A stretch of 64,000 nucleotides of DNA from contig NC_090952.1 of the NCBI RefSeq assembly GCF_040807025.1, positions 3,984,001 through 4,048,000 on the forward strand, given 5' to 3'. A model generated the notes under the pieces. It was not told the origin of the DNA, ran no database searches, and saw only the letters and a list, made by a program, of their open reading frames with translations. The DNA comes from Struthio camelus (lineage: Eukaryota > Chordata > Aves > Struthioniformes > Struthionidae). Shown here piece by piece: positions 13,451 to 61,697 of this stretch. A program made the position numbers and the translations under genes. Within the stretch, counting starts at the first letter, position 1. Every line of letters begins with the position of its first letter.

Positions 13451-14733
13451 AAGAGCACATGCCGTCACACAGAGATAAATGAGCAAACTCTCTTTGCACT
13501 CTGATGGTGACAGCTCAAACCATTATATGTGTACCAACAGCGAATCTTAACACTTCAGGCCAAGGGAATCCCCCCAATACAGGCATTGCCATGCAGATGG
13601 CATGAAGAGCTCTTTGTTACCTGCCCTGCGTTGCTCACACCTCTGACGCACCACAAGAGCTCAGCTCTGGAGAAAAATCCACCTGCAGCTCCTTGCCATG
13701 TTCGGGACTGCTCATTGGTCTTATCCAGCAGATTGGTGTTTCTCAGGCAGCTCCTGTGTCACTCTGAGGCTGGTCTTGTAAAGGCTGAGAAAAGGCAGGC
13801 TAGCATTGTGGAGTCATGAGAGAAAGATAAACGTGTCCTGTAAACCACTTCCCGTATTTCTGCCAGTGATTAGGACGATATCTTTTACACTGGCTGCTAT
13901 GGGGCAGGAGAGGGGGAGAAGGGAGAAGGTAGGGATGTTTTAGGGTCTGGATGAAACCTTTAGCAATTACATATCTTGTTTCTGAGTTTTCAATAGATCT
14001 ATGGCGTGCCAAGTTTACATCTTGAGGAATGATATGGATGCTCTGCCAGCTTTATGGACCTGTATCTCACAGCATTTGCAGTGACAAATCATATCTCCCA
14101 AATAGCCTGTGCATGACAGCTTGCACACAGCACAGGAGCCCACAGAATGAAGCAAAGGTCTCATAGCTACCTGGACATGTAGTTTGGTAACATGGAAATA
14201 GATGTTCAAGCTTTTCTGATGAAGAGACTCCTTTTCAGTGGGTGTTAGATGTTGAGCACCTTCCTACGTTGCTTCCTGAAAGCACAGACAGGTGTGTGAG
14301 CAAAAGGGTCTTTTATGGAAAACTTACATATCTTTATAACTTTGTCTTTATAAATAACTGTGAAGCGATGGAGTCTGGGGAGGATGTTTCTTTCTAATGT
14401 CAACACTAGAAAAATAACAGAAGGGGATTTTCTGCCTCCCTGTGGAGGCTGCCGCAGGTGGCAGAGGTAAGGATGAGCTCATCTGCCATCCACTGCGGTT
14501 GCAAACTCTACTTCTGAAAGATTTTTTTATGAGAACATTGCTGGCCATGGCCAGTTGCAGAGAGGACCAAGACCTGCCCCTCAGTCCTAGCCATTCTCTC
14601 CAAAGTAGCCAGCCCTCAGATGTGCTAGACAACCCTATGCACAGGGCAGTGGATCCCTTGGGAAGGAGACTTGACATATACAAGAACTTCTGCAATGTGA
14701 CTATTACAGCCATCTTTCCAAAACAGGCTGACA

Positions 14734-15101
14734 GAAGAGAAGATTGAGAGGGGATCTCATCAACGTGTACAAGTATCTGAAGGGGGAGTGTCAAGAGGAT
14801 GAGGCCAGTCTCTTCTCCGTGGTGCCCAGCAACAGGACAAGAGGCAATGGGCACAAAATGAACCACAGGAAGCTCCATCTGAACCTGAGAAAAAACTTCT
14901 TCACTGTGAGGGTGACAGAGCATTGGAACAGGTTGCCCAGAGAGGTAGTGGAGTCTCCTTCGCTGGAGACATTCAAAACCGTCTGGATGTGATCCTGGGC
15001 AATATGCTCTAGGTGACCCTGCTTGAGCAGGGAGGTTGGACTAGATGATCTCCAGAGGTCCCATCCAACCTAAACGATTCTGTGATTCTGTGATTCTGTG
15101 A
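14734..15101 (+). mobile_element. CR1 LINE, 3' fragment (a)
   Basis: A severely 5'-truncated CR1 copy holding the ORF2 C-terminus ([17 protein letters not shown] onward), the 3' UTR motif GATGATCTCCAGAGGTCC and the terminal ATTCTGTG repeats. It closely matches the 3' end of the copy at 15905-17922. A one-base loss near its end shifts the last codons. Confidence 0.95.
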
Positions 15102-15812
15102 TAACGTGCACCTTTGAGTGTCATGCTCCGGACTGGGACGTTGCAACACTTCTGTAAAGCAAATACATTTTGTGATGCATCTCAAAGTTGAGACGGATCC
15201 TGTAAAAGTAAAGGAGTTGCTTCAGGATGTTTCAGTTAAAATGGAGGGAAAGAGGGTGAGACCTGAGAGAACCGTTGCAAAGCTTCCAGCTGTCGTATAT
15301 TTTAAATTACCAGCATAAAAGCTTTTTGGCCTAGATTTGATGGGAAACTGAGGCTGTTATAGTCAAATAAACAGTTTATATTTCTAAATCCAAGGCAATA
15401 TCCAAGGAAACTTCAAGACAAAGTCCACATCACTCAGATGCAAGTTATGAGGTTTTATCAGGCTTCAGAAAACATTGCATAACTCCTATTCTCCAGTGCT
15501 GAGAGATGGGGAGTATCTCTGTGCAGATCATTTACTATGACTGTCAAATACTAACACATTTTTTTTTAAATCTTTCAGAGGTGCAGTTACTCAAAGATGA
15601 CAAGAACCATGAAGTAAGAAGATGTGCTGTAAGAATAAGAGGTCACTTTGTCACAGGGACAGGTAGATAATGCCTTCCTGACCATTGGAATTAGGCTGAA
15701 TTAGCTGTTGAGAATATGTTCCCGAGTAGCAGATGTAAAATAAGAGTAGCTGCTCACAAACCTTGGCCTGCTCATGAATACACAAACACTAGAGGCTTTC
15801 TACCAGCATTCC

Positions 15813-15850: not shown

Positions 15851-15901
15851 AAACTTTCAAGCCAATAAATCCGGTCTTTGGCAGAAGTGGTTCAGATCAT
15901 C

Positions 15902-17833
15902 ATGAAGTTCAGCAAAGTGGGCAGGAGACCTGCATGGATGAGCAAGGAACTCCTGACAAAACTCCAGCAGAAGAAGGAAGTGTACAGAATGTGGAAAAGG
16001 GGACAGGCCACTTGGGAGGAATACAGGGACGTTGTCAGAGCGTGCAGGGATGCGACAAGGAAGGCTAAGGCCCAGTTGGAATTAAATCTGGCAAGGGATG
16101 TCAAGGACAACAAGAAGGCCTTCTTCAAATACATCAATAGCAAAAGGAAGACTAGGGAAAACGTGGGCCCGCTGCTGAATGGGGCGGGTGCCCTGGTGAC
16201 AAAGGATACAGAGAAGGCAGAGTTATTGAATGCCTTCTTTGCTTCTGTCTTCACTGCTAAGGCCAGTCCTGAGGAATTCCAGACCTTGGAGAAAAGAGAG
16301 GAAGGCTGGAGAAAGGAAGACTCTCCCTTGGTTGAGAAGGATCGGGTTAGAGATCTTTTGTCCAAACTTGACATCCACAAATCCACGGGCCCCGATGGGA
16401 TGCACCCACGAGTGCTGAGGGAGCTGGCAGATGTTATCGCTAGGCCTCTCTCCATCATCTTTGAAAGGTCCTGGAGATCAGGAGAGGTGCCTGAGGACTG
16501 GAAGAAAGCCAATGTCACGCCAGTCTTCAAAAAGGGCAAGAAGGAGGAGCCAGGAAACTACAGGCCTGTCAGCCTCACCTCCATCCCGGGAAAGGTGATG
16601 GAACAGCTCATCCTGGAGGTCATCACTAAGCATCTGGAGGACAAGAAGGTGATCAGGAGTAGTCAGCATGGATTCACCAAAGGGAAATCATGCTTGACCA
16701 ATCTGATAGCCTTCTATGACAGAATGACTGGCTGGGTAGATGAGGGCAGAGCAGTGGATGTTGTCTTTCTGGACTTCAGCAAGGCTTTTGACACTGTCTC
16801 CCATCACATCCTCCTAGGTAAGCTCAGGAAGTGTGGGCTAGATGAGTGGACGGTGAGGTGGCTTGAGAACTGGCTGGATGGCCGAGCTCAGAGGGTTGTG
16901 GTGAATGGCGCAGAGTCAAGTTGGAGGCCTGTGGCTAGTGGTGTCCCCCAGGGGTCAGTCCTGGGTCCAGTCTTGTTCAATATATTCATCAATGACCTGG
17001 AGGAAGGGACAGAGTGCACCCTCAGCAAGTTTGCTGATGATACTAAACTGGGGGGAGTGGCTGACACACCAGAAGACTGTGCTGCCATTCAGAGGGACCT
17101 GGACAGGCTGGAGAGGTGGGCGGAGAGGAACCTCCTGAAGTTCAACAAAGGCAAGTGCAAGGTCCTGCACCTAGGCAGGAATAATCCCATGCACCAGTAC
17201 AGGCTGGGGACTGACCTGTTGGAAAGTAGCTCTGCCGAGAAGGACCTGGGAGTGCTGGTGGACAACAAGTTAACCATGAGTCAGCAGTGTGCCCTTGTGG
17301 CCAAGAAGGCCAATGGGATCCTGGGGTGCATTAGGCAGAGTGTTGCCAGCAGGTCGAGGGAGGTGATCCTGCCCCTCTATTCAGCCCTGGTGAGGCCTCA
17401 CCTGGAGTACTGTGTCCACTTCTGGGCTCCCCAGTACAAGAGAGACATGGCACTCCTGGAGAGAGTCCAGCGGAGGGCTACCAAGAGGATTAGAGGGCTG
17501 GAGCATCTCTCCTATGAAGAAAGACTGCAAGAGCTGGGCCTGTTCAGCCTGGAGAAGAGAAGATTGAGAGGGGATCTCATCAACGTGTACAAGTATCTGA
17601 AGGGGGAGTGTCAAGAGGATGGGGCCAGCCTCTTCTCCGTGGTGCCCAGCAACAGGACAAGAGGCAATGGGCAGAAACTGAACCACAGGAAGTTCCATCT
17701 GAACCTGAGAAAAAACTTCTTCACTGTGAGGGTGACAGAGCATTGGAACAGGTTGCCCAGAGGGGTGGTGGAGTCTCCTTCGCTGGATATATTCAAAACC
17801 CGTCTGGATGTGATCCTGGGCAATATGCTCTAG
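15902..17833 (+). CDS. CR1 ORF2 remnant: reverse transcriptase and C-terminal region
   Basis: The frame is open from at least 15878 with no stop until 17833; the first ATG is at 15902, giving 643 residues. In order it shows the pre-RT segment, [71 protein letters not shown] and the catalytic FADD at 17030-17041, then the CR1 C-terminal region ending near VILGNML. These are the canonical RT blocks. Without endonuclease, ORF1 and promoter it is not autonomous. The intact frame suggests a fairly recent insertion. Confidence 0.9.
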
Positions 17834-23592: not shown

Positions 23593-26500
23593 ATGGGCTC
23601 TACCTGGGGCTGCTGGACCCTCTGCTCCACCCTGCTGCTTGGTAAGTCTGGGAAGGAGAGTGCACTTGCTATCTGATATTAAACTGACCTCTGAAAGCAC
23701 AGGTGCAGTAGGGACCTTTTCTGCTGTTCACTCTGCAAAAGGCACTTTTCCTTCTTTACTCTCAGACTCTTTTCTTTTTTTTGCTCTCAGACATATGGGA
23801 TTTACCCCAGGCTGGGCATCACACTTCCACCCTGGAGCTCCGCTCGGGCAGCGGGCGCTGAGGTGTGACGTGTCTGTTCCCTGGAGGCTCCCAGTCTAGC
23901 TCTCTCCCTCAACTGCCTAGGCCAGGGGAGGAAGAGTGGCCCCAACCTTTCCACCCCCAGGGTATCCCTCATCGCTGGGGCAGTGCGTTGGCTTCTCTCC
24001 AACTTTTGCTGGGAAAGACCTCACACCAGCTGCTCCAGGTACCAGCCTCGGAAGTGTTTTGGGAGATGCCCAGGTCCCTGGGCAGCCTGTGCCACCTGCG
24101 AGGTGCCTGCTGCACTTGTGGGTTTGCAGCCTGTGTCCCACCTGTGCTGCATGGCTTGGCCTCAGCGTGCACGTGGCACGTTCGGGGACAGGCTGGGCAG
24201 CAGCAGCTGCTGGGGGCTGCAGCTGGCCCAGCTGCGCCCCTCGCTCAGAGGTTTATTGCAAATGAGATTTGCAATATTTTCAGCCCCCTAAAAGCCTAGC
24301 TACAGAGTTCAAAGCACTTTTTGTCTAGGGGGGCTCGGCAGGAGGACAAGGGGAAGGCAGGGACGCCTCTGGCTCTTTCCTGGAGCTGGGCTGGCCCCTT
24401 GCTGAGTCGTGCCACGGGGTTAATCGCTCCCAGCCATATCTGGGGTCAGCATTACCTTCATTGCTTTCACTCCTGCATCTGGGTTGGCCAGCAGCAGGAC
24501 TGTGCTCAGTGAGAGGCCACAGATTTATCTGTGCAAAAAAATACATTACAGTCAGGCCATGCACTAGGTCTGTGTGTGAGAGGGGGGAAAAAAATAAGAG
24601 TCGCATAAAGGGAAAACGATAGCAGATTACAACAGTATGAGATTTCCCCCCATCCATTTCAGAGCAAGATTCCTGTTTCTCAGCCTTGGGCAGTTAAATA
24701 TTTGCTGTCTGGACAACAGCCTCCCAGAGAGTCCTATACCAGAAGCAACCGTGATCGGGAAAGGTGTAAATACTTGGGACTGGCTGTTAGCGTGCCACTT
24801 CTATTATCTATTCTTATCTATATGAAAAAGGGACATTTGTAAATAAAATTAATTTGTAAATTAAAGGCAGGCTGCCCGAACTCTCTGTAAAAATGGTCTT
24901 GCTGATCTTTGCTTTTCACCTTTTATTGCAGGTCTCTCCCAGGCACTTGTCCTCAAAGCCCCTCAGGATTCGGTCAATGGCACTGTGGGCCACTCCGTGC
25001 TCCTGCCCGTCTCCTACAAATTCACAAACTCCTCTTGCTTCCCACTGTCGTTTCACTGGACGTTCAGTAACCGCTCGGACGCGCTCATCACCTGCACGGT
25101 GCTGAACTGCTCCCTGAGCGCGGAGGGGGCTCCCAAGCACTGCTTTGCAAAGCATTTCCCACACGCCGTGTACCGAGGTCGCGTTGTGCTTTTCCCTGAG
25201 AACGCGTCCCTGCTGCTCCGGGACCTGCAGCTCAGCGACGGCGGGGTGTACAGCGTCACCTTCAAGCAGCAGATCCAAACCAGGCACATCACCTTAACTG
25301 TGTACGGCAGGCATCATGGCACCCCCAGGGATGCAGGTGCTGGTAAGTGTGGCACTGGCCGTGCACTCTGATACGCCTGACCTACCCTGAGCAAACGCAT
25401 ACCAGGGCGGGGAACAGGCAACGCTGTTCAGATCTCTTTTAAGTTGCACAGATGTGGGGGGTCAGTCAGCTCCGAGGAAGCTGCTGAGGGGCTGTGAGTC
25501 TTTCCAGTAGCAGCTGGCTGGTTCCAACCTTTCCGCCAGATGAAATAACTCTCCTAAAAAGCACACGTCTGAACTTCCTCTGAATCACTGAGAGAGGTTT
25601 TGCAAAAGGAAGCTAGTTTTCACTGGCAAAGATGTGAATTATGGCTCAGAACAGCTTACACCTTCATATGAATCAAATGACAAACTTGAGTCTAGATGTC
25701 TACAAAAATACATAAATTTGTGGCTTGTGATATTTGCAAGTAAAAAAAAAAAGCCTAGAGGGTTCTTAGGAAACTAATTCATTACCTGTTAGACCTGGAT
25801 CATCAGACTCTTCTAGCAAAATGGCCCAGGTTGGAATATCTATTTTGGCTTTGCCATGTAATCTAGACTTTGCTTTGTCTCTGTTTCAAGTGGCATATGG
25901 GTTTAGCTGTGTAAACTTTCTGCCGCATTTCTGCAATGTGTCCAAACCTCCTCTCTGATCCGTGCGGCCCTTTAATATTTCTAACTTTACGTTAGGTTAA
26001 TTCCAACGAATGTTATTGCCTTATCTTTGTCTTTGAGATACACAAGACTCTATTCACAACAGTGACTGTCTTAACGCCCCTGTTGCGATCTGCTATAAAA
26101 GTCAAATAAATGAGATAATTCTGCCTGTATCATCTGAATGTGATATAATATGAATAATTTACATAAAAACTTCTGCATTTTGGCACAAAGTAATTCTGAG
26201 AGAACTGGCTCTTAGAAGAGAGGCATTTCCAGAGCTCAGTGAAAACTGAAACTCATGGGACGAGTTGCAGTCAATTAGAAAAGCCCACAGCCAACTTCAC
26301 CGCAAATAAAGAATTAGTTGAATTTTCTGCATTCCTCATGAGAACTAATCTGCCCTGCACTACATGTCACAACTGCAGTGCTCTCTGAGGGGGCTGAGCC
26401 CGGCCGGTGGCCGGTGACGGTGGCCTGTCTCCTCCCCAGGGCTGCTCAGAGCACCCGGAGCGCAGCCCGCTGGCATGGGGGGAGGCACGCTGCAGCCGGG

Positions 26501-40886: not shown

Positions 40887-43800
40887 ATGTCCACTCACTG
40901 GCACTGCAGGAGCTTTGGCTCCATTCTTCTGCTCCTCGGTAAGTCTGGGACGGGCTGAGCTGAAAAATCCTGGGGGAATGTGGTGCACCACAGAGGATGC
41001 AACCCAGCAAACACTGCATTGTGCTGTGCATGGGCAATGGAGGCAGTGACACCAGATGCTTGTCTTTGCTTGGGTCAGAGTTACAGCTCACCGGAGGCTG
41101 AGGAGCCATCCAGGGGACTCACAGTACATGTTTGCCCTGAAGATCCGCTCTTTCCCACAGACCGCTCTTAGCTACTCCCCATCCTAGCATCCCACTCCTG
41201 GCTTGTGCCATCAGGAACCTGCAGTGGCATCAGTCACTGACAGGCTCTTGGTGGGATTTACTTGGCAGAGGCTGTTCCTCCAGGAGGTTGCTGCAGACCA
41301 GGAGGTGGAACGTGCCTTTACCTCCCCTTTCCCCAGCTGGAGGTGGGGAGGCATGAAAGCTGAGAGCACCTTCAACTGTAGACGTACAGAAAAGTGCATC
41401 TAGTTGTAAAATGGTGCAATGTGCTTAAGTGCCAGGGGACAAATAGTGCTGGGAGCTCCTGACCACGTTAAGCCCATCTCTGAGACCAATTGACTTGCGT
41501 TTTTCAGCTCTCACTGGGATTGCTGCCCCTGCTTATGGGCAGGCGCAACGCTCACAGCCCAAGTTGCTCTATACAAGCACCAGAGGGACGGAGCCCTCTT
41601 TACTGTGATAGCTCAGGTCTCCCTGTAAAATCCATAGGTGTGGATGTGGTGGCTGCATTTTGCTGAGAACTAGTTTCCATTGATGAAGCTGCAGAAAATG
41701 GTGGAGAATACCCATACGGTGTGTTGAGAATACCCATACGGGGCAGTGTTGGAGGAAGAGAGGAGGCAGTCACAGACAGCCTGTCTTCTCACGTATCAGG
41801 ATGAAGTGATGTTGCTAATTTGCCTCTTCTCATTCTCTACAGGAAAAAACCTGGCTCTTATCACTGAAATCCCTCAGGATTCGGTCAATGGCACTGTGGG
41901 CCACTCCGTGCTCCTGCCCGTCTCCTACAAATTCACAAACTCCTCTTGCTTCCCACTGTCGTTTCACTGGACGTTCAGTAACCGCTCGGACGCGCTCATC
42001 ACCTGCACGGTGCTGAACTGCTCCCTGAGCGCGGAGGGGGCTCCCAAGCACTGCTTTGCAAAGCATTTCCCACACGCCGCGTACCGAGGTCGCGTTGTGC
42101 TTTTCCCTGAGAACGCGTCCCTGCTGCTCCAGGACCTGCAGCTCAGCGACGGCGGGGTGTACAGCGTCACCTTCAAACAGCGGATCCAAACCAGGCACAT
42201 CACCTTAACTGTGTATAACCCTCATTTTAGCTCTAAAAATGCAGGTGAGTGTGAGTGTGAGAGCGTGCTCAGCACAGACATCATCTATAATACCACAGCG
42301 ATGCATACAGGAAGAAGAGGGGGTGCAGGTAGGATATTTGTTCCTACTTCCCCAAGGGATGTGTTGCTGCAGCGAAGACAGGATTTCAAGGGATGTCATA
42401 TGTGGTGTTGTAAGTAGCTCTTCTATTTATGGCAGGAAGCCCATTCTGTCCCCTATTGCTAGGTTAAATCAGAAACATAAGGGTTTCCTGTGTAGCTGGT
42501 TATCATTAAATAAGTAATAGTCTTTCACCAGTCTCATGTTTATCTAATATTAATCAATACAGTTGAGAGAGATGGACTGAGAATCCTAACCACTGCATCT
42601 GGGTCTTACACTGGAGGAAATCCAGTATTCACTGGGGAGAATAAAGGGCTCAGGAGTAAATCTGTGGCCAGATGGGCTAATAAAAGCATATCACATAATT
42701 GCTATTCATGTACACATAAAATGTAGATAGATAGCATCGTGGGGAAGTCAGTCAAGCTGGCAGCCTTGCTTCCTCTGACAGGATGGGCTCCTTCTGTAAC
42801 CTGGCTGAGTTTGCGATATTTATTCACAGTTGCCACCCAGTCTTGATGATACATATCAAACACATCTATCTTCCTGGTTTTGCTTGTTGCTTTATTCCCA
42901 TTTCTCCAGCTGTTCCCTGGTCTGGTTTACACTCTCCATGGTGAACACAGGGATTTTGACGTTTTGACTTTGCACGCAGTAATTTTCCAATACCCTTCCT
43001 TGGTTTTATCTGGATCACTGCCATCTGTCAAGGCATGAAACACAGCATGCTTCATTTGCACTGATGACTCTTCCAGAGCTCAGCTGCCATTTTGTGTACA
43101 AAGCAAATATTACAATCTGCATGGCAGTATTTGACCATGGTACAGTCCAAATCATTATAGACGTAGCATTAAACATCTTTGCATTCTGTGGGCAGAACTG
43201 GAGAATGCTTTCCCTGTTCCCCCCTGCAGTGCTGTGAGGAGTACATACACCTCACGCTTCCTTCAGGATGGAAGCATTTCTCAGCATATTTTCTTGAATA
43301 GTTCCAGGAAGGGAGAAGAGGGCTATGGTGTCTGATTCAGAGTTACAGTAACCCCTCATGGCACAGCATGCGCAGCCCACAAGGCACACACTGCCCAGAG
43401 TGGAGGCAACACAACTGCTTAGATGTGCAGTCAGTCAGCACAGGAAAAGAAACTCACAAATTGGCTGTAGATGTGGGTGGGTTTTTTTGCAGTGAAATAT
43501 TTCCTTTAATCTGTGTGTCCACAGTGCTGCTCTCCATCTGTTTATACTGCTTTCTGATCACAAGGAGAGTACTATAATCAGAAGGCATGTTCCCTGGAAA
43601 ATGTGTTGCAACCACTGCAACTGTTCCTTCAGAAAACACTCACACCACCTGTTTTCTTCCAAATGTCAGACCATAATGACACAAAAAAGGAAATTTCAAG
43701 CCAGATCACTGACTACATTATTGGAGTTTCTTCTTGTTTAATCTCCTTCCTTCTGCTGTTCCTGTTCTGCTGCTGCATATGGCACCCGGGTGAGTGGATC

Positions 43801-46975: not shown

Positions 46976-47692
46976 CCTGCACCAGTACAGGTTGAGGGCT
47001 GACCTGCTGGAAAGCAGCTCTGCAGAGAAGGACCTGGGAGTCCTGGTGGACAACAAGTTAACCATGAGGCAGCAATGTGGCCTTGTGGCCAAGAAGGCCC
47101 ATGGTATGCTGGGGTGCATGAGGCAGAGTGTTGCCAGCAGGTGGAGGGAGGTGATCCTGCCCCTCTCCTCAGCCCTGGGGAGGCCTCTCCTGGAGTCCTG
47201 TTTCCAGTTCTGGGCTCCCCAGTACAAGAGAAACATGGAGCTCCTGGAGCAAGTCCAGCGCAGGGCTATGAAGATGATGAGGGGACTGGAGCATCTCTCC
47301 TCTGAAGAAAGGCTGCGAGAGCTGGGCCTCTTCAGCCGGGAGAAAAGACGACTGAGGGGGGATCTGACTAATGTACATAAGTATCTAAAGGGAGAGTATC
47401 AAGAGGATGGGGCCAGACTTTTCTCAGTGATGCCTAACGATAGGACAAGAGGCAGCGGGCACAAACTGAACCACAGGAAGTTCCATCTGAACATGAGGAA
47501 AAACTTCTTTCCTGTGAGGGTGAACAGGTTGCCCGAGGAGACTGTGGAGTCTCCATCCTTGGAGACATTCAAAAGCCATCTGGACACAACCCTGTGCGAT
47601 GGGTTCTAGAGAACCCTGCTTGACCAGGGAGGTTGGACTAGATGATCTCCAGAGGTCCTTTCCAACCTCAGCCCTTCTGCGATTCTGTGATC
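46976..47692 (+). mobile_element. CR1 LINE, 3' fragment (c)
   Basis: 5'-truncated copy starting near [19 protein letters not shown] and running through the ORF2 C-terminus to the 3' UTR. The frame is still open to 47609, but compared with copy b it has many substitutions, an internal loss near FFPVRVNRLPEE and a different terminal sequence, so it belongs to another subfamily or is older. Confidence 0.93.
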
Positions 47693-50312
47693 TCCAGATG
47701 AACATCCTATAACTAGTGCAGCAGCCCCTCTCCTGGCCCAGGGTGAAACACCTATTGCATTGCCTGGCTGCTCAGCTCTTGTAAAGCCCTGCTGGTGTTC
47801 ATGGCAGCAGAGCTTTGCTCCAGAAAACAGAAATATTTTGTGGTTTAATAAAACCACATATGCAGAAAACTTGCCTTAGGTAAGAACAGAGCCATTGCTG
47901 TGGTTAGTGTAAGACCTTAAATACTAAATAGAGGAAAGTACTAAAAAAGTGAAGAGCAAGCAAATAAACATATAGGAAATATGGCTGGCAGTCCTCAGGC
48001 TTAAGCATGTAGCATCACTGCCTTACTAACTGTCTCTGCCCCAGTACTGAAGGCCTCTGAAGATGGCATCCCTCAGGAATGTGGAAGCACATGGAACGAC
48101 TTCTCAGGAAGCAGATCGGGTCCTCCATAACTATGCACTGCCATGGAGCCCATCTTCAGTTTTGCAGAGCTGACAGAATAACTGTTTGGTCTCTCCTATG
48201 CCTGGTAAGTCACAAAATAGCCTCAGCACTGTAGCAATATTAAGACTTTTATAGAATGAACTCATCAATCTTTTAGGAACACAACCGCCAGGTCTCACAG
48301 AATGACCTCTCCCTCCTGGAGAAAAAGGTATCTAGATAGAGAAAAACAGGGACTGTGCTACAGAAACATCCCAGGCTGAACTGCTGCTTTTCGGAAGATA
48401 GTACCAAGACACAGGAGCAGCCCTAGCCATCTGTAGATTTGTGCCTCTATGCAGTAATGCTTTTTGCAGGGTGTAGCTATTTCAGTGCATGTACAGGCCT
48501 TCCCTTATTTCCTTTGCCCTGTAGTGTCCTCTTCTTTCTGCCCTGTGCAGCAGTACCTAGGTTGTACTTCTGATTATTTTGGAGTATTTGTTCACACGGA
48601 GCATGTCTGTGCCATGCTGAATGCCTACAGAGGGATAGCAAAATAGATAACAGTCATTGCCTTGAAGTTGCACACACTGTGAGTTGCGGATTTGTTTTGG
48701 ATGTCTGCAGTAAGGACGTGCAATTCAGATGTGATTAAATCCTCCCTTTGCAACTTGCTTCTTGTAGAAGCTGCCTGGTGCCTGTAGGGAGCCTTTTCAA
48801 GAGGTGAAGTGCTATTACACCTACATACAACCAGTGCGTGGGTAATGGAAATATCCAGACCATTCTGTGAGCTGACCACATTTGTTCTGCGATGCTCTTC
48901 ATGCTTCCCTGTTTCTGTCTTCTTCTCCACCTCTCCTGGGGACCTGCTCTCCTGCTAACCCTGTGCTGCCAGCATGCAAGGGATTGCTTCTCTTCCTAAC
49001 CTGTCCCTCCAGTGCCTGCATCTAATCCACGCTACAGCTTTGCGGACTGCTGCTGCTTTCTCATTTCCTTCACCAGGTAGCTTCTTCGCAAGGTTCTGCC
49101 TCTCAGGCCCTTCTTTGCTAGCTCTTTAAAGCTGTTAAAGGTCAGTGTGGTTTTCCTTGTGGCTGCAAAGGATTCAGTTCTTGCAGATCTCTTTCTGAGG
49201 TGCTCTGCTGTGTGCTGGCCATGTCTCAGAACACACTTCTTCCTACTGCATACAGGCAGCCCTTTATTTTAAAGACTTCAAGTAGTTGATCTCCAGTAGA
49301 TGATCTCCAGAGGTCCCTTCCAACCTAAACCATTCTGTAGTTCACCAGTCCTCTCAACAGCATTGCTGCTCTTCACAGTTGATTTTTCTGCATCTCAACC
49401 CATCCCAGGCCCATCAGGTTGAATATCATTCTCTGAGACACTATTTGCTTAGAGGGAAAAACACTGTCAGTTGTCCCTTGTGTAGTGTAGGGGTCTCTCA
49501 CACCCTATAGAGTGCCTCTCATAGCATCCAGAGATAATTTCGGGTGATAAACAGCACAGTCAAGGTTACCGTGGCCCACCAAGTCTTCAAGCCACAGCTC
49601 GCTCTCTCTCTCTGTAAACAGACTAGAAGAGCCTGTAGTCCCTAAGTTTTCCAGAGCGGGGACTCCAGACAACATCTTTTTCACTAGGATTGATCCAGTG
49701 AAATCTCCTCTCCACTGATTTTTTTTTTCTCTCTCTCTTTTAACCATAGGCAGAGAATTTAGGGGAACCCCATAAGCAAAGTTCTCTGCAGACAGCTCAG
49801 CGGACACCTACATGGATATCAGGGGGTCCTCCAAAAGCCATTTGCAACTGGAGGACTGGATTTCCAGAGATCAACTAGAAAATTTCATCACATTACTGTT
49901 TCATCCAAACACTTTTGATTTCTAACAGAAATATATGATCATCACTTTGTGACTGTTCAGGCTGCAGCAGCATGGGAGTGGGAAGAGAGAGGGAACTGAG
50001 GCTGTACTTTGAGGAGGAGTCTATGGCATGAGTTTCATCTTTGCTGATGGTCAGCCACTATTCTTATCTCTCTGCCACCACAATAAGCTGCACTGGCCTG
50101 AAGAAACATGCATGCAAACTCTTCTTCATGGCCTGAGTCTCTTGCCAATAATTACATATTTTCCGTGCTGAGTTTGCTTTTTGGTCTTTGCCCGCCCCTC
50201 AAAAGGTGCTAGGTGCAATGCAAGTGCCAGGAAAGCTTTTAAAATGCTTGTGAAAGGAGTTAGGCACCAACAGAAATGTGCTTTGTTTTGCATTTAGGTT
50301 ATCTAAGATTAA
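47693..50312. other. Spacer with a small CR1 tail
   Basis: Contains a CR1 3' UTR scrap at about 49297-49339 (TAGATGATCTCCAGAGG followed by the ATTCTGTA end). Nothing else recognised. Confidence 0.55.
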
Positions 50313-51516
50313 GTGGATGTTGTCTCCCTGGACTTCAGCAAGGCTTTTGACACTGTCTCCCATCACATCCTCCTAGGTAAACTCAGGAAGTGTGGGCTAG
50401 ATGAGTGGCCGGTGAGGTGGATTGAGAACTGGCTGGATGGCCAAGCTCAGAGGGTTGTGGTGAATGGCGCAGAGTCAAGTTGGAGGCCTGTAGCTAGCGA
50501 TGTCCCCCAGGGGTCAGTTCTGGGTTCAGTTTTGTTCAATGTATTCATCAATGACCTGGATGAAGGGACAGAGTGCACCCTCAGCAAGTTTGCTGATGAT
50601 ACTAAAGTGGAAGGAGTGGCTGACACACCAGAAGACTGTACTGCCATTCAGAGGGACCTGGACAGGCTGGAGAGGTGGGTGGAGAGGAACCTCCTAAGGT
50701 TCAACAAAGGCAAGTGCAGGGTCCTGCACCTAGGCAGGAATGACCCAGGCACCAGTACAGGCTGGGGGCTGACCTGCTGGAAAGCAGCTCTGCAGAGAAG
50801 GACCTGGGAGTGCTGGTGGACAACAAGTTAACCATGAGGCAGCAATGTGGCCAAGAAGGCCTAGGGGATCCTGGGGTGGGTGCGTTAGGCAGAGTGTTGC
50901 CAGCAGGTGGAGGGAGGTGATCCTGCCCCTCTCCTCAGCCCTGGGGAGGCCTCCCCTGGAGTCCTGTGTCCAATTCTGGGCTCCCCGGTACAAGAGAGAC
51001 ATGGCACTACTGGAGAGAGTCCAGCGGAGGGCTACAAAGAGGATGAGGGGACTGGAGCATCTCTCCTCTGCAGAAAGGCTGTGAGAGCTGGGCCTGTTCA
51101 TCCTGGAGAAGAGAAGACTGAGAGGCGATCTCATCAACGTGTACAAGTATGTGAAGGGAGGGTGTCTAGAGGATGGGGCCAGACTCTTTTCCATGGTGTC
51201 CAGCGACAGGACAAGAGGCAACGGGCATAAACTGAACCACAGGAAGCTCCATCTGAACCTGAGGAAAAACTTCTTGACTGTGAGGGTGACTGAGCATTGG
51301 AACAGGTTGCCCAGAGAGGTAGTGGAGTCTCCTTCGCTGGAGATATTCAAAACCCGTCTGGATGTGATCCTGGGCAATGTGCTCTAGAGGACCCTGCTGG
51401 AGCAGGGCGGTGGGACTAGATGATCTCCAGAGGTCCCTTCCAACCTTGGCCATTCTGTGATTCTGTGATTCTCTGATTCTGTGATTCTGTGTTGCTGTGT
51501 TGCTGTGATTCTGTGA
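50313..51516 (+). mobile_element. CR1 LINE, 3' fragment (d)
   Basis: 5'-truncated within RT: starts at the [15 protein letters not shown] block, keeps FADD at 50589-50600, and continues to the 3' UTR. The frame is broken near 50745 and again downstream, with small deletions compared with copy b. The terminal octamer array is longer and includes a GTTGCTGT variant before 51516. Confidence 0.95.
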
Positions 51517-54392: not shown

Positions 54393-56253
54393 ATGCTGAT
54401 CTGCCAACCGTCGGAGCTGCCGGGGACCAGCTGGGTGCTCCTCGCAGGTAAACTGTCCCTGAGCTGGGCTAGGTGCTGATGCTGTCTAGTGGGCTCTGAG
54501 CCAGATCCTCACCTGGGGTGAACCTGTGCCTGTGACTTCAGCAGAGTTTTGCAATTGTACGTGGGCAAACATCCATACAGGCTATGTACACTGGGCAACT
54601 TTTCCTCTGAAAAGCTGAAAACAAAAGCAAGAGCATCTCTGCTTCACTGTCCGAAGACAGAGGAGCTAGAAGCACCAGAAGAGTTACTCACGGTGCCAAG
54701 CCTAGAAGTCTTCTGTGACTAAAATTATACTGTGATTCCTGTAAGTAATAACTCATAATTTATCACAAGCAGATGTGAATAATCTCATTGCAGTCTTTAT
54801 ATATGCACTGGGGTGGCTTGAAGCACCAATATTTTCAGGATCAGCATCTAAAGGAGAAAGGAAACCCCTTACGGTGCGTCCAGTTTTCCAAATGTTGTGT
54901 TGCTAGTGAGCTCTGTTTGAGTGTCTACAAGATGAACTTTGGCTACCCTTGTAAAAAGCCAAGTACAATTAAGTACCTTCTCTTATCTTGTACTAACGGT
55001 ACTGCTACTGTTCGTTATGTGTATAGCACACTGTATAGTGTTCTTCTAGAGCAAAGTGGTTTTCAGTTTTAAAATTGTTTCTCCTTCCTGCACACATCTC
55101 TCACAGGTTGGGGGACATCAGGGCACATAAGGTAAAACTGAGAGCTCTTTTTCAAGGTTACTAGCCTGAGAAATGAAAATGATCAAATGGACTTGATTTA
55201 TTCAGATTTTTATGCCTGTTTTCTTTCCCCTCTTCCCCGCAAAATTACAAAGAGAGAGAAGTAACCAGTTAAAGCAGAAGAGACAAATTCCTAATCATTT
55301 TCATGAACAGCAGGAGGCAGTGTAAATGCATGCTTATCCGGACTAGAACTGAAACATAGGGAGCGGATAGAGTAAATTCAGTCTGCGCAGCTAGCGGGTT
55401 TGCGCTGGTCTGAACCAGCTGCCCTGGGGCGGAGGTGACGCACGGCTCCTGTGCTCCTGAGCATTTCCCCAGTGTTTTGCTGCAAATGGCTGAGTAGCTG
55501 GGCCCTGGGTGCTAGAAATATGCTTTCATGATGTCGCCTTTGTTGGGAAATGTGGCTATGATTGTTTGGTGTTGATTGTCTCAGCAGAGGCTGGGATTGC
55601 TGCTGCCAGTCCCCGTCTCGTCTTCAATAAAGCTCAGTTGCAACGCTCCTGCACAAGGGTCATACTAAAAACCTGGAGGTGGAGAAGATGGCCTTCAGCA
55701 AAAATCCCAGCATCTCCTTCAGAGCAGCCTCTGGGAGTCACAGGAACCTTTGTCACACCAGGATTGCCACAGACAAATTAATTGGATCTCTGATCTGTTA
55801 GTTCATAGATGAATGTCCTTTCTTCCATTTCATCTGCATAAGGCTGGATCCCTGCTTTGAACTCTTTGATCGCAATTTTTTTTTTTTTGAGAATCCACTT
55901 TACAAGCAAGGACTCTAGTAGTTATTTCTGCCTGGCTTTCCTAGAAAGTCGTGCAGACTGAGAGGTGCCATGGCAGCTCTTCATTCCGTCTGCTGGTCAG
56001 ACGGCCTGAGCCTCCTCAGGAGTCCTTCCACCCACAACTGCTCATTTTGAAGTCCACAGAGCCTCAGTTATGGCCTGAGTTGCAGAAAATGCAGAAACTG
56101 CCTTGTGTGCTGGAGAAACAGTTCCATCCCAGCGGGCTGGGAGTGGATGGAGGCTTTCAGCCCCAAACAACACCAGGAGTTTGGACTGAGCCATGGAAAT
56201 TAGGTTGGGATTGGAAAGTCCCTTCTGCACACAGGCTAGGAAATGACACCCAA

Positions 56254-56289
<36 letters not shown>

Positions 56290-59200
56290 GCACGCACACA
56301 CACGCATGCACAAATGAGAATTAGCCAGTGGCTCACTGAGGAACGTGGGCTGAGTCTACAGCACTGCAGGCAAATTTCTCTGAGCATCTTGTGCTACTAT
56401 ATTTAGGCACTTCCATCAGTTCTGACTGGGATGTCTCACTGCCTGGCAGCATGGCACGCAGCAGTGGCAAGGGCCTTGTGAGAGGTTACGACCTTGTGCC
56501 CTGATGGTCCAAGTACCACTTGGCCCAAGGAGTATCATAGCCAGTTTCTCTTGAGCCTTGCTGACTTGCTCTGTCTTCTCAGTTTGTCTTCTCTTGCTCT
56601 TCCATCTAGGGCTGTTAGTGCCCTTGCAATGGGCTGCAGAAGCAGGAGGACCTCTGGAAAGAAAAGCTGCCACTGTGGGATCTTCGGTACTGCTTCCTGT
56701 GCCAGAGAACGTCACACATATATACTCAGTGCAGTGGGAGTACCTCAACGGCACCAGGTCCCACTCCATCCTGCAGCACTACAAGGGCTCACACACCCCA
56801 GCTATCCATGCACCCTACACAGGTCGAGCCATTTTCCATCCATCCAATGGATCTCTCTTGTTGGAAGATGTGCAGGAAACCGACAGCGGGATCTACAAAG
56901 TGACCATCAACCTAGTAGAAAGGGAGAGCCTCAAAATCCAGCTGGAAGTCCTCAGTAAGTGCTGGGTATGGGAGGGAAGAGCAAGGTGATGGATACAAGC
57001 AGAGCAGTGGTATTTTTTGAATATGTATGGACCATTGGCCAGGCAAAGAGTTTTGGTGAAGGGATTTGAGCTAAGTCTAGGGTACTGACCATGTGGCGTT
57101 TACTTGTTGCAATCTGCCATGCACCAGGGAGAGTTAGTGAAGAGTCTCCCGAACCTTTGCCAGGGAGGAAACTCTGTGGTTCTGCCCTGAGAGACCTTCT
57201 GGGGCCTGTAAATGTGACAGAGGGCAGGACTCCATCCTGGAAAGGCCCATTTGCTCTCTTTTTGTCTACTTCCAGTGCAGGGGGCTGAAGCACTGGCAAG
57301 ATGGGTGTGTGTCTGCTGCCTCACACTGGCCACCTGCAGAGCATACCTCAGGCATCCTTTGCAAGGGGGACTTGGCAGAGCTGATGGAGCTATGTGTAGG
57401 CTTTGTGGAGAAGTCACAAAAAAATCTCCCCCTCTGACCATACTGGCATCTGAGCCCCCAGGCTCACTGATGGGCTGTTTCCTATTCACAGGTGCCGGCC
57501 ACTGTCACGGAGATAAAAGCACATTTTAAATAACACAGAGGTTCCTCGATAACATCACTGTTGGCAGTTCACTTTGCAAGTTAATTTGCTCTGATGTTTT
57601 CCTTTCTTTGCACTTGCTGCCATAATACTCTCGCCACCTTTCACCGCTCATGTCTCCATTTCACTGCTCAGAAATCTGACTGGGGACTGCATCCTTTTCC
57701 TCTTTTGTCTTGTCTCCTGAGAATAAGAATGCCCTGTGTTAACCTAGATGCAACAAAAATTGCGATTCAGCCCTACCACTTCTGGGAAAAAAACAAACAA
57801 ACAGAAAGCAGAGCAGCCCTGTATGATGCTGTATCTGTGCTAGACACCCACCTGCAGGACTGCCCATGGAAAGGTACCTGGGTTTGCACTGTTACAGACT
57901 CAAACATGCTGCAGAGAGAGTTGTGCCCCTGATCTCCACCAGCTCCCCATTGCAGATGCTCCAGGTCCTATGTGATAGAAGCGTTGGTGTTTCTGTCCCT
58001 TTTCCAGAGCCCGTGTCTCACCCTCAGCTCCGGAGCAGCGCCCTAATGGCACAGTCCACTGTCGAGGTGCTCTGTGATGTGGCTGAGGGCAGAGTGGACA
58101 CCATCGCCTGGAAGAAGGATGGGCAGCTCCTTCCCCCAGACAGAGGTTTCTATCTCTCCAGCAGCATCAATGTTTTGTACCTGAGGAAGGTGAAGAAGTC
58201 GGACTGTGGTTCCTACTCTTGCAATGCCAGCAATGGGATAAGCTGGCAGGAAGCTTCCCTGAATGTGACCATTGCAGGTAATCACTGCTCAGTGTTAGCT
58301 CCTGACCTGGGGTTTGTGGTGTGACCTGCATGGCTAAAACTGCCATCAGAAAACTGCTGCTTCCCACAAACCACCCAGGGAGAGACAAGGAGACCCTGCT
58401 CTCCCACTCCCTCTGCTCTTGCTGCTCTCTATCCCCCCCCAGGATTCAATGGGTGTTTTGACCCCATCCCTCTGCCTCTGTCCCCCAAGGCTTGGCCGGC
58501 CCTCCCATGACGTTGTGGCCCTTGTGTGAGCTCTAAACTGTTGACAGGAGTTCCCATGCTGTTGTAAGATGACTGGCAGCAATTCCCAGCCTTTTCTCAA
58601 GGGTGCAGCCTTACAGTGGCTGCCTGGCACAGCGCTGCCAGCAAGGCAGCCTGCTTGTCTGGGATCTTCTTTCTGGCCTCCACTGTCCCATATAACATCT
58701 TCTCGTCTCCCACCAGCAACATTTCCCTATCTCCCACCACTTCTGCCTGGCTGCAGGGTGCAGTCCGGCCTAGGCAGGATGGGCAGTGGGAGGCTGGCTG
58801 TTCCCTCTTGAAGAAGGTCCTGAGGCCTAGCCGGACTATCACTGCACCCATGGCCAGGGCAGTGGTGGGTAGGATGTGTCCCAGGAGATAGTGGCCAAGG
58901 TACATGTGGCACCACCTGTCCCAGCTTGGACATTTCATGGACCAGAGCCTGCAGCAGCAAGTGCTAATTTGGCCACCAGGTGTCAAATAAAGCAACTCTT
59001 TCCTTTTCACAGAGAAGCTCCATGGCCCACTATGCTGGCCCTGCTGATGGCCTGAGTCTTGGTTCCTCTGGATTTTTTCCAGGTCTCTCCCCTCCCTTAC
59101 AAGATGCACTGAGGATTGCAGTGGTTGCTGTGGTCTTTGCTGCCGTCTCGGGATGGGGCTTAATTTTTCCTGTCTGCCAATCAGAAAAGCAAAGAATAAG

Positions 59201-61697
59201 TGAGTCTGCAAGGGAAGGCACTGAAAATGTTTCCCTTGTGAGGGAGGGGGGGAGGAGCATTCCCATGGGAAGAACTGAGAGTCATCCGAGTCAGCTGAGA
59301 GTCAGCTGTCTAAGCAACTTGCCTCCTTCTCGTATATCAGATCTGTATAAGAGTAAGACTAACTTTCCTGGGCTAATTTTTTAACAGAGAAAACTCTCTG
59401 GTGTTAGTCTAGACATCTCTGTGAAAAAGTTGAGATGACTGACATTTTTGTAGAAAAAGAAGTTTCTCAGGAGTATTGTTATTACAACGCTCCATTTTAA
59501 TACACCTGAGGAATAATAGGAGTAAGGGGAGAAACAGTGATATAGGCATATGTGCTAAAACCAGTCGAAATAAGTACATATTTCATCAGTCCCTGCTTGT
59601 CAGATGGATTCATCTCCTGTCAGACCCACATCGCATCTGCCAGTCCCCAGCAAACATCTCAGATACCCCACGGCATCTGGGGAGATGGGCTTCATACCAC
59701 CATGGGCAGTGGGGGGCTGGCACGGGACGTCACACGTGTCACAGATGTCACTCCAGCACTGCTCTGTGTGTTTAGGAGGGGAGCTGTGGCGATGGCTCAG
59801 TGCCTACACCTGCGGGCTGGTGTGCATCTCCTCTGTCCTGGCAAGCACCGCCGGGATCATCTGGATGCGAGAGGAAGGTAGGATGTGGGCTGGGGGCAGT
59901 TGTATTGCGGTGCTCTACAGACCCCAGCCCTGACTCCTTTCTCCCCTGCAGGGTGCAGCATGCAGAAGCAATCCCTGCTGTAAAAAAGCGTATGGGGTAA
60001 AGGCCTCCTGGGAGAATTAGAGCCTCATGGGTGTCAGAATGGAAGGTAGTGCCCAAGAGAGGAGAGGTCCCACAATTAAACATGCAGAATGGAGCTGCAT
60101 GCTGCCCAGCCCAGGGCAACACGCACCTCCCCCAGCCACGTATGGCTGATCTCAGCTTGTAGCAGGGGCTTGGACCGCATTGGGTACATACCCATCTGTG
60201 CAATTAATACAGTTATCCCCCTTTATAGATGGGGCACATCGGTCTTTCCTAGGTACCTGAAGGTGGTAAATAGGGCAAATGCAGAACTGGTATTGACCCT
60301 TATGCTGTTTTCCTTCAGGCCCATCTATTGCCTTCATATTGCCTGAGATCCTCCTTACGTATGTGGTTGTGGTAACATTCCTGGTTTCTGCCACCGTGAC
60401 GTTCCAGCCTTCAAAACTCGTCCATCTCAAAAGCAAAACAGGTGAGCTGTTCTACAGAGGGTGGCAGGGATGAAGTTAAAACTGGCTGATGGGGTTTTCA
60501 TTTTGCCAAAAATCCCATCCTTAATTTTTTTAACGAAAACTTTATTTTTTTATTCCGCTGTAATTCATCCTGTCCTGAAGTTCTGTCAAATTACTACACA
60601 GTGCCCAAAACACAGTCTCATTGACAGCTTTACGTTACGAAAAGCATAGCTGAGCTTTGGAGCAGTGAAAAAATCTGCTGTAAATCACAGGCTGGTATAT
60701 CTCCCCCTGGACCATGGGTCAGGCCAGCTCTACATCTGCTGTATGTGCCTAGTAACATACAGTAACACCTCTTTGCCTTCTTTCACTCATCAGTACAGCG
60801 CACGATGGGCTACGCTGCTCCCGGAGGGGTGCTTTCAGTGGTGCTGACTACCAGCTTCCTCATAAAGAACATCTACCATCGTCACGGTGAGAAGAGATTA
60901 TCTAGGGGCCTGCATTTAGGCCACCAAAGTCTGGCAAGCCCTGAAGGATTTGTCATACTGAGGCTAAAACCCGTCCGTGATATACACACTCCCTACGTCT
61001 CTTTGAATCTACCATTCAGAATTAGATCTGCTCCCCACAAAAAAAATCTCCCAGGTTGGGGCTGTCACGGAAAATTCCCCGTTTGTCATATGTTCCTTTG
61101 AGACCTTTGCAAAAGGCAATCTGGTTTTGATCACCTTTCTTTTTTTTTTTTTAACAAGTGTGTTCATGCACTTTTTGACACAGACAGTTCAGCTTTCTAT
61201 TTCTCTCTTTCTGGTTTGGGTTGAGTTTTGTGCCGTCATTTTGTCCGTTTGAATGACAGAACAAGGTTGCACAGAGTTTGTGGATGTGACCACCCTCGCA
61301 GTTAGCACAGCTGTGGTGTCTGCCCTCCCAGTCCTCGCAATCTTCCTGCGCTGTAAGTGTCCCTGCTCCTTAATTTCCCTGAGCCTCTGAGTGCCTTGTG
61401 TTTAGCAAGGTACTATCCCTCTCTCCCCCCATAATCAAGTAGCAACGTGAATTATTTAAAACTTTTTGGTTCGGCCTTTCTTAAGACCTCAGGACCCAAA
61501 GGTCTCTCCAGTTACCGTTTCCTTTCCCCAGTGAGCTTCAGATACCACCCCCCAATACAACCTCCTATACTGTGCGCTTGCTGCCTAGCATACACTTTTC
61601 TGATGCCTGGGAACAGACTTGTTTTTTTGCAGATCATACAACTCAGGGATGTCAGAAAGAGGAACACAGCTCCAGTTGGGTGGACAAGCACAGGTGA
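54393..61697 (+). CDS. HEPACAM-like V plus C2 immunoglobulin protein with five predicted membrane spans
   Basis: Nine exons: 54393-54447, 56610-56954, 58008-58277, 59083-59199, 59776-59877, 60319-60441, 60794-60886, 61260-61352 and 61633-61697; total 1263 nt, 420 residues. All eight introns are phase 1. Exons 1-2 give a leader (WVLLAGLLVPLQWAAEAG), then a V domain (to about 133) with SSVLLPVPENVTHIY, NGSLLLEDVQ and SGIYKVTI and no canonical cysteine pair. Exon 3 is a C2 domain (134-223) with VEVLCDV, IAWKKDG and SYSCNAS, so its disulphide is intact; PVSHPQ at its start is very like HEPACAM. Exons 4-8 each carry one hydrophobic segment: RIAVVAVVFAAVSGWGLIF, YTCGLVCISSVLASTAGIIW, LLTYVVVVTFLVSATVTF, APGGVLSVVLTTSFLI and TTLAVSTAVVSALPVLAIFL. 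Exon 9 is a short polar end (SSSWVDKHR, stop TGA); a donor-like GTGAAT overlaps that stop, so further exons are possible. The topology recalls CD47 but the sequence does not. Span four is the weakest. Confidence 0.7.
56255..56309. repeat. CA/CG-interrupted dinucleotide microsatellite
   Basis: A perfect CA run passes into CGCGCACG and further CACACACG units. It lies in intron 1 of the five-span gene. Confidence 0.97.
59952..59983 (+). other. Possible alternative last exon of the five-span gene
   Basis: A strong acceptor (TTTCTCCCCTGCAG) opens a segment which, joined in phase 1 to exon 5, adds GCSMQKQSLL and a TAA. Use of it would end the protein after two membrane spans. It could also be a chance acceptor. 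Confidence 0.3.

Follow-up and report, generated by a model that had tools for sequence, protein, structure and literature searches.

A three-gene cluster of two-domain immunoglobulin proteins with a predicted CD47-like five-span membrane base

The window analysed here is a stretch of 64,000 nucleotides, positions 3984001-4048000 of contig C11 in a 1.45-Gb genome, apparently that of a bird. At window positions 54393-61697 it contains a gene, here called WIN, whose product combines a V and a C2 immunoglobulin (Ig) domain with a membrane base of five predicted spans; two paralogues, PARA and PARB, lie on the same contig beyond the window edges. We are fairly confident that WIN is a functional vertebrate cell-surface protein with V and C2 domains, five spans and a short inner tail, and that it belongs, with two other genes of its cluster, to an old family. 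With somewhat less confidence, we read these genes as a second five-span immune-type family, with two Ig domains, its own conserved clamp between the Ig part and a membrane loop, and at least three copies. Its plan would then either have evolved twice or belong to a hidden CD47 superfamily.

Exon structure of WIN and its paralogues

WIN consists of nine exons on the + strand, located where an earlier note on this DNA had placed them. The claim that these exons join without a frame conflict by phase-1 introns was confirmed: all eight introns are GT-AG and of phase 1, and the joined frame encodes 420 residues. The protein starts with a signal peptide, whose coding sequence is interrupted by a phase-1 intron, and continues with the V-set and C2/I-set domains, five hydrophobic segments and a tail of 22 residues. 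Exon 1 (54393..54447), assigned by its frame and donor, carries the start codon and the first half of the signal peptide. Exon 2 (56610..56954) encodes the end of the signal peptide and the V-set domain, which has no cysteine (Pfam V-set, 1.8e-11), and exon 3 (58008..58277) the C2/I-set domain with the canonical pair C156-C205 and a lone C200 in the motif DCGSYSC (Pfam Ig_3, 5.5e-14). Both Ig domains proposed in the earlier note are thereby identified; for the membrane part, the Pfam search of WIN gave no credible family.

The hydrophobic segments occupy separate exons, all of phase 1-1. Exon 4 (59083..59199) encodes membrane span 1, exon 5 (59776..59877) inner loop 1 and span 2, exon 6 (60319..60441) outer loop 1 and span 3, exon 7 (60794..60886) inner loop 2 and span 4, the weakest of the five, and exon 8 (61260..61352) outer loop 2, with a lone C372, and span 5. 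The short cytoplasmic tail and the stop codon are in exon 9 (61633..61697), and a check of this tail for motifs resembling the immunoreceptor tyrosine-based inhibitory or switch motifs (ITIM or ITSM) found none. Kyte-Doolittle peaks above 1.3 form nine rows in WIN, all of them within exons 4-8 and at least one per exon. The earlier proposal of five spans, one per exon, holds by prediction, and the same series occurs in both paralogues.

The paralogues were found in a search of the genome with the V and C2 domains of WIN, which yielded 86 matches at E ≤10. Those at 1e-13 or better are the V and C2 domains of three genes, namely WIN and one gene on each side. PARB lies on the + strand of the contig, with the V exon at 4057359-4057700, the C2 exon at 4059227-4059496, and spans 1-5 at 4059868-4059984, 4061895-4061996, 4062923-4063042, 4063274-4063369 and 4063701-4063790. 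PARA is on the - strand, with the V exon at 3975785-3976129, the C2 exon at 3974994-3975266, and spans 1-5 at 3974545-3974661, 3973713-3973814, 3972897-3973016, 3972420-3972515 and 3971872-3971964. Each of the three genes has all seven corresponding exons (V, C2 and five spans, phase 1-1), in identical order and orientation, and both strands are represented. All 21 exons are open and have lengths divisible by three, the length differences being multiples of three. The proteins of PARB and PARA are, respectively, 45% and 36% identical to that of WIN over exons 2-8, and the pairing of span 1 with span 1, span 2 with span 2 and so on was the best of 120 pairings in all three comparisons within the family. 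The tail of PARB is short, and there is no ITSM-like motif in it. With this exon series present in both paralogues, the five-span base cannot be put down to an accident of exon joining; it is of old origin and has been conserved. The paralogues are decisive here, and we regard the nine WIN exons as real.

To estimate how many such exons arise by chance, we scanned both strands for open phase 1-1 exons of 75-150 nt containing a hydrophobic stretch; the splice-score thresholds were derived from the five span exons of WIN itself and are biased in their favour. The + strand of the window yielded nine rows, comprising the five WIN exons, one alternative acceptor for the first span exon and three exons of neighbouring genes, and the - strand yielded two. 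The mean expected by chance, from six order-3 Markov simulations, is 0.5 rows per strand, so the five WIN span exons exceed the chance expectation. With slightly lower thresholds, a scan of 244 kb gave 41 rows: 16 from WIN, PARA and PARB, three from single-span genes, and 22 others, among which we saw no comparable five-exon series. The scan itself recovered 14 of the 15 span exons of the family.

A genome search with the base of WIN or PARA found no match elsewhere at E ≤0.001, although this search is insensitive, as neither query recovered the bases of the other two genes. In PARB, part of the span 1 exon is present a second time in the intron between the exons for spans 2 and 3 (4062143-4062237); 79 of its last 80 bases are identical. 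The copy has both an acceptor and a donor; its length is 95 nt, so that its use would break the frame. This copy means that span exons do get duplicated at this locus.

Predicted topology and a candidate disulfide

Hydrophobicity and charge predict five spans for all three proteins, with the N-terminus outside and the C-terminus inside. Lysines and arginines in inner loops 1 and 2, compared with those in the linker and outer loops, number 8:3 in WIN, 6:4 in PARB and 6:5 in PARA.

The cysteines of WIN are at positions 4, 156, 200, 205, 255, 275, 279, 372 and 406. Only four cysteine columns are invariant when the three proteins are aligned, namely the C2 pair (156 and 205), 200 and 372. C200 is the first x of the motif D-x-G-x-Y-x-C (DCGSYSC in WIN); its presumed place, going by general knowledge of Ig domains, is the E-F turn, at that end of the C2 domain which faces the membrane. 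Folding the C2 exon alone produced a poor model (predicted local distance difference test, pLDDT, 58), which agrees only in placing C200 just before strand F. At other Ig loci of this genome, a subset of the 86 matches, a cysteine at this position occurs in none of 15 D-x-[GA]-x-Y-x-C motifs (13 distinct, from 11 loci). The exact DNA pattern for D-C-G-S-Y-S-C-N-[AV], which was derived from WIN, PARA and PARB themselves, has three matches in 1.45 Gb, one per gene, and its reversed control has none. C372 sits in the loop joining spans 4 and 5, which is outside if the five spans hold. By analogy with CD47, C200 and C372 may form a disulfide in the WIN family. Since C372 is conserved behind four spans, selection seems to have kept the full five-span form.

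Several observations weigh against a conserved and functional five-span family. It is known from the genomic sequence of one genome alone, the paralogue models begin at the V exon, and that of PARA stops at span 5. The acceptor of WIN exon 8 is weak (top 17% of AGs), and the fourth span exon of PARA, which the scan missed and which was found by hand with its homologues as a guide, has a weak donor (GTCAGG). Moreover, dS (synonymous divergence) is near saturation and uneven between exons; given this and the variation of single exons, the dN/dS values of the membrane region (nonsynonymous to synonymous divergence; 0.48/1.46 for WIN-PARB, 0.68/2.4 for WIN-PARA, and 0.59/2.1 for PARB-PARA) are only rough. 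For span 1 of PARB and PARA, dN is 0.65 versus a dS of 0.76, which indicates hardly any constraint. DNA similarity passing 1e-3 is located at exons, plus the duplicated exon piece in PARB; it covers only V, C2 and spans 1-3 between WIN and PARB, and V and C2 alone in the WIN-PARA and PARB-PARA comparisons. As to topology, the charge bias is slight in the paralogues (6 versus 4 in PARB, 6 versus 5 in PARA). Insertion of span 4 of WIN into the membrane is predicted to be energetically unfavourable (1.9 by a simplified biological scale, 2.5 with a fixed 21-residue window); for comparison, this span has values of -0.4 and 0.3 in the two paralogues, 1.4 in CD47 of the same genome and -3.6 in human CD47. 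Finally, the C2 domain of PARA holds one extra cysteine without an evident partner.

The weak acceptor of exon 8 and the restriction to genomic sequence would also fit a dead or mis-joined gene, that is, a pseudogene or Ig and span exons belonging to different genes. We consider this very improbable: the V-C2-five-span order recurs three times with both strands represented, the intron between the C2 and span 1 exons of PARA measures 332 nt, and neither a stop nor a length other than a multiple of three is found in any of the 21 exons. Somewhat less improbable, but still unlikely, is a main product with one or three spans, in which exons 5-8 are skipped or form part of another transcript. The uniform 1-1 phase of the span exons does preserve the frame on skipping, as the earlier note pointed out, and this part of its argument stands; the change of topology that it derived from skipping is a possibility only, and the conservation of C372 favours the full form. 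Against the shorter products are the five exons open in all three genes at an overall dS above 1, and the invariance of C372, behind four spans, together with C200. As far as one genome can show, the span exons appear to have been kept open across related genes, and we retain the five-span protein as the preferred reading.

Comparison with CD47 and other Ig families

CD47, also known as integrin-associated protein, is a 'don't eat me' protein. PMC8410850 describes it as the immune system's only receptor with five spans, and reports nothing that is related to its membrane part in either sequence or structure. According to two papers, the CD47 disulfide C15-C245 (C33-C263 counting the signal peptide) ties the Ig domain to the span 4-5 loop, and breaking this long-range bond reduces SIRP-alpha binding and signalling (PMC8410850, PMC10902115).

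CD47 of the genome studied here lies on another contig (C1), and its span exons of 90, 102, 93, 96 and 93 nt are all of phase 1-1. The WIN family resembles it in several respects. Both have an Ig ectodomain with the N-terminus outside, five spans (predicted here for the WIN family) and a short tail, and in both each span has its own phase 1-1 exon, with exon boundaries at matching loops. In both, the Ig part and the span 4-5 loop each carry a lone cysteine; this holds for all three proteins of the WIN family, and the loop cysteine comes two to four residues after the start of the last span exon. For span 2, the exon length is 102 nt in all of CD47, WIN, PARA and PARB, and for span 5 it is 93 nt, except in PARB with 90 nt. 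The analogy with CD47 drawn in the earlier note is supported by the one-exon-per-span, phase-1 structure of this CD47 and by the similar placement of the lone cysteine pair.

The differences are equally clear. CD47 has a single V domain directly on its base, whereas the WIN family has V and C2, and the V domain of WIN is devoid of cysteine. The SWF linker of CD47 is absent from the family, whose linkers begin with GLSPPLQDA, GLSPPLRHA or GLKPFLKQA, and so is the GLG at the top of span 3. Nor does the base have detectable sequence similarity to CD47 or a match to PF04549, the Pfam model for the CD47 membrane part. As a positive control, the membrane part of CD47 from the same genome matches PF04549 at 3.2e-42; no match is listed for WIN, PARA or PARB up to E 10, with the proviso that HMMER filters drop most matches above 0.1. 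In span-by-span scores against human CD47, with exon borders assigned by hand, and CD47 of this genome, the true order ranks 86th of 120, below the mean. A profile comparison of the family base with CD47 by hhalign gave a probability of 0.1%; the reversed control, like 41 of the 60 shuffles, scored at least as high. No solved structure matched the base up to E 10. As the PF04549, span-pairing and profile tests are all without similarity, the WIN family is not CD47 by any sequence test made, and these tests suggest that CD47-based searches would miss it. An apparent common motif in span 1, FA(x)4WG, was spotted by eye; it led no further, and a sequence-based homology of the base with CD47 was rejected (pairing rank 86 of 120, hhalign 0.1%, no solved-structure match).

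By analogy with CD47, the V tip of the protein could meet a partner on an opposing cell, and a C200-C372 disulfide would act as a clamp that fixes the ectodomain to the bundle of helices, like C15-C245 in CD47. The tail having no tyrosine motif, the bundle might couple binding to other membrane proteins. The protein would then work like CD47, as a displayed ligand and lateral organiser, while standing outside the CD47 family by sequence. We read the three genes as a second, sequence-unrelated five-span Ig family that is probably CD47-like in action. Among the matches listed in open-licence PMC literature, no title or beginning of an abstract describes a two-Ig five-span protein. A second family would offer something against which to compare the CD47 plan, for instance to ask whether five spans exist for the sake of clamping the ectodomain to the bundle. 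It also raises the questions of whether the five-span Ig plan has arisen once or twice, and whether the new family, too, provides a self or adhesion signal.

As to its origin, the base could be truly homologous to that of CD47 but strongly diverged, either by common descent or by shuffling of phase-1 exons, and be preceded by another ectodomain. The five 1-1 exons of CD47, the matching loop boundaries, the cysteine early in the last span exon and the shared exon lengths (102 nt for span 2 in all four genes, 93 nt for span 5 in three) are in line with such homology. Moreover, viral CD47-like receptors, according to PMC8410850, have diverged to just seven residues identical to human CD47 and kept the cysteine pair. 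We nevertheless regard it as rather unlikely, given the missing PF04549 match, the low rank of the true span order, the hhalign score that shuffles equal, and the absence of SWF and GLG. Alternatively, an Ig gene with one span may have acquired the base independently, through a 1-1 membrane exon that was duplicated several times, the likeness to CD47 being a convergence. This is a tentative explanation to which three V genes with single 1-1 membrane exons in the same cluster, the recent partial second copy of the span 1 exon in PARB, and the lack of similarity to CD47 lend some weight. Its weak side is that the five spans of a gene have no marked similarity to each other (mean z ≤1.6) or to the neighbours' single spans (≤2.6), so that no trace of span duplications is left. 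Of these two origins, we lean slightly towards convergence. The span comparison gave no clear signal for two specific candidates, an origin from the neighbours' single span and one span duplicated five times.

The ectodomain points to relatives other than CD47. Its HEPACAM-like character, as the earlier note put it, is a conjecture. A V profile built from the three proteins was compared with solved structures (best 60 of 228 matches); JAML (3.1e-15) and carcinoembryonic antigen (1.7e-7) are among the best matches listed, and CD48 (1.5e-8) and SLAM family member 6 (1e-4) are also among those listed. The Pfam family Receptor_2B4 is passed by one of the three proteins, PARA, with 27.1 bits at a cut-off of 21. 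Members of the CD2/SLAM group, such as CD48, CD244/2B4 and NTB-A, have a C2 domain preceded by a V domain that does not contain the usual disulfide, and V domains of CEACAMs likewise have no cysteine pair. WIN is similar to the CD2/SLAM group in that its V domain has no canonical disulfide and is followed by a C2 domain with the canonical pair. CD2/SLAM proteins have one span or a glycosylphosphatidylinositol (GPI) anchor, and some carry an ITSM in the tail; by contrast, all three genes of the WIN family have five span exons, and the tails of WIN and PARB have no ITSM-like motif. Similarly, JAML and the CEACAMs are one-span or GPI-anchored adhesion proteins, and their N domains, although the best V-profile matches, differ from the WIN family by its five spans. 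Searches of NCBIfam with exons 2-8 and of PHROGs with the base gave nothing useful.

Neighbouring genes and other features of the locus

The window contains three neighbouring V genes on the + strand, with V exons at 6794, 24932 and 41843 and single 1-1 span exons downstream at 8592, 26690 and 43670. They share with WIN the cluster and the combination of a V exon with a 1-1 membrane exon, and differ from it in having a single span; their V domains are 32-37% identical to that of WIN over the matched part. No C2 exon was found in these genes by tblastn. The DNA of their V exons (6766-7167, 24939-25304 and 41815-42216) is 94.5-98.6% identical over 355-403 bases, while the flanks beyond are unalignable; this pattern may reflect recent exon-sized gene conversion or duplication.

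An open reverse-transcriptase-like frame of 654 residues, which we take to be a CR1-type long interspersed element (LINE), is located at window positions 15869-17830, with further partial copies, 80-96% identical, at 14733-15102, 46978-47694 and 50312-51478. Outside the window, another V+C2 gene lies on the - strand at C11:4079275-4081885; it has an ordinary DSG turn and no lone cysteine. The cluster is flanked by genes at C11:3945819-3953000 and C11:4123869-4123988. The former has a weak TauD match (0.024) and is presumably a piece of TMLHE, and the latter is an amidase (PF01425, 2.7e-14), which we assume to be FAAH-like. The TMLHE-like piece and the amidase should be useful for locating this locus in other species.

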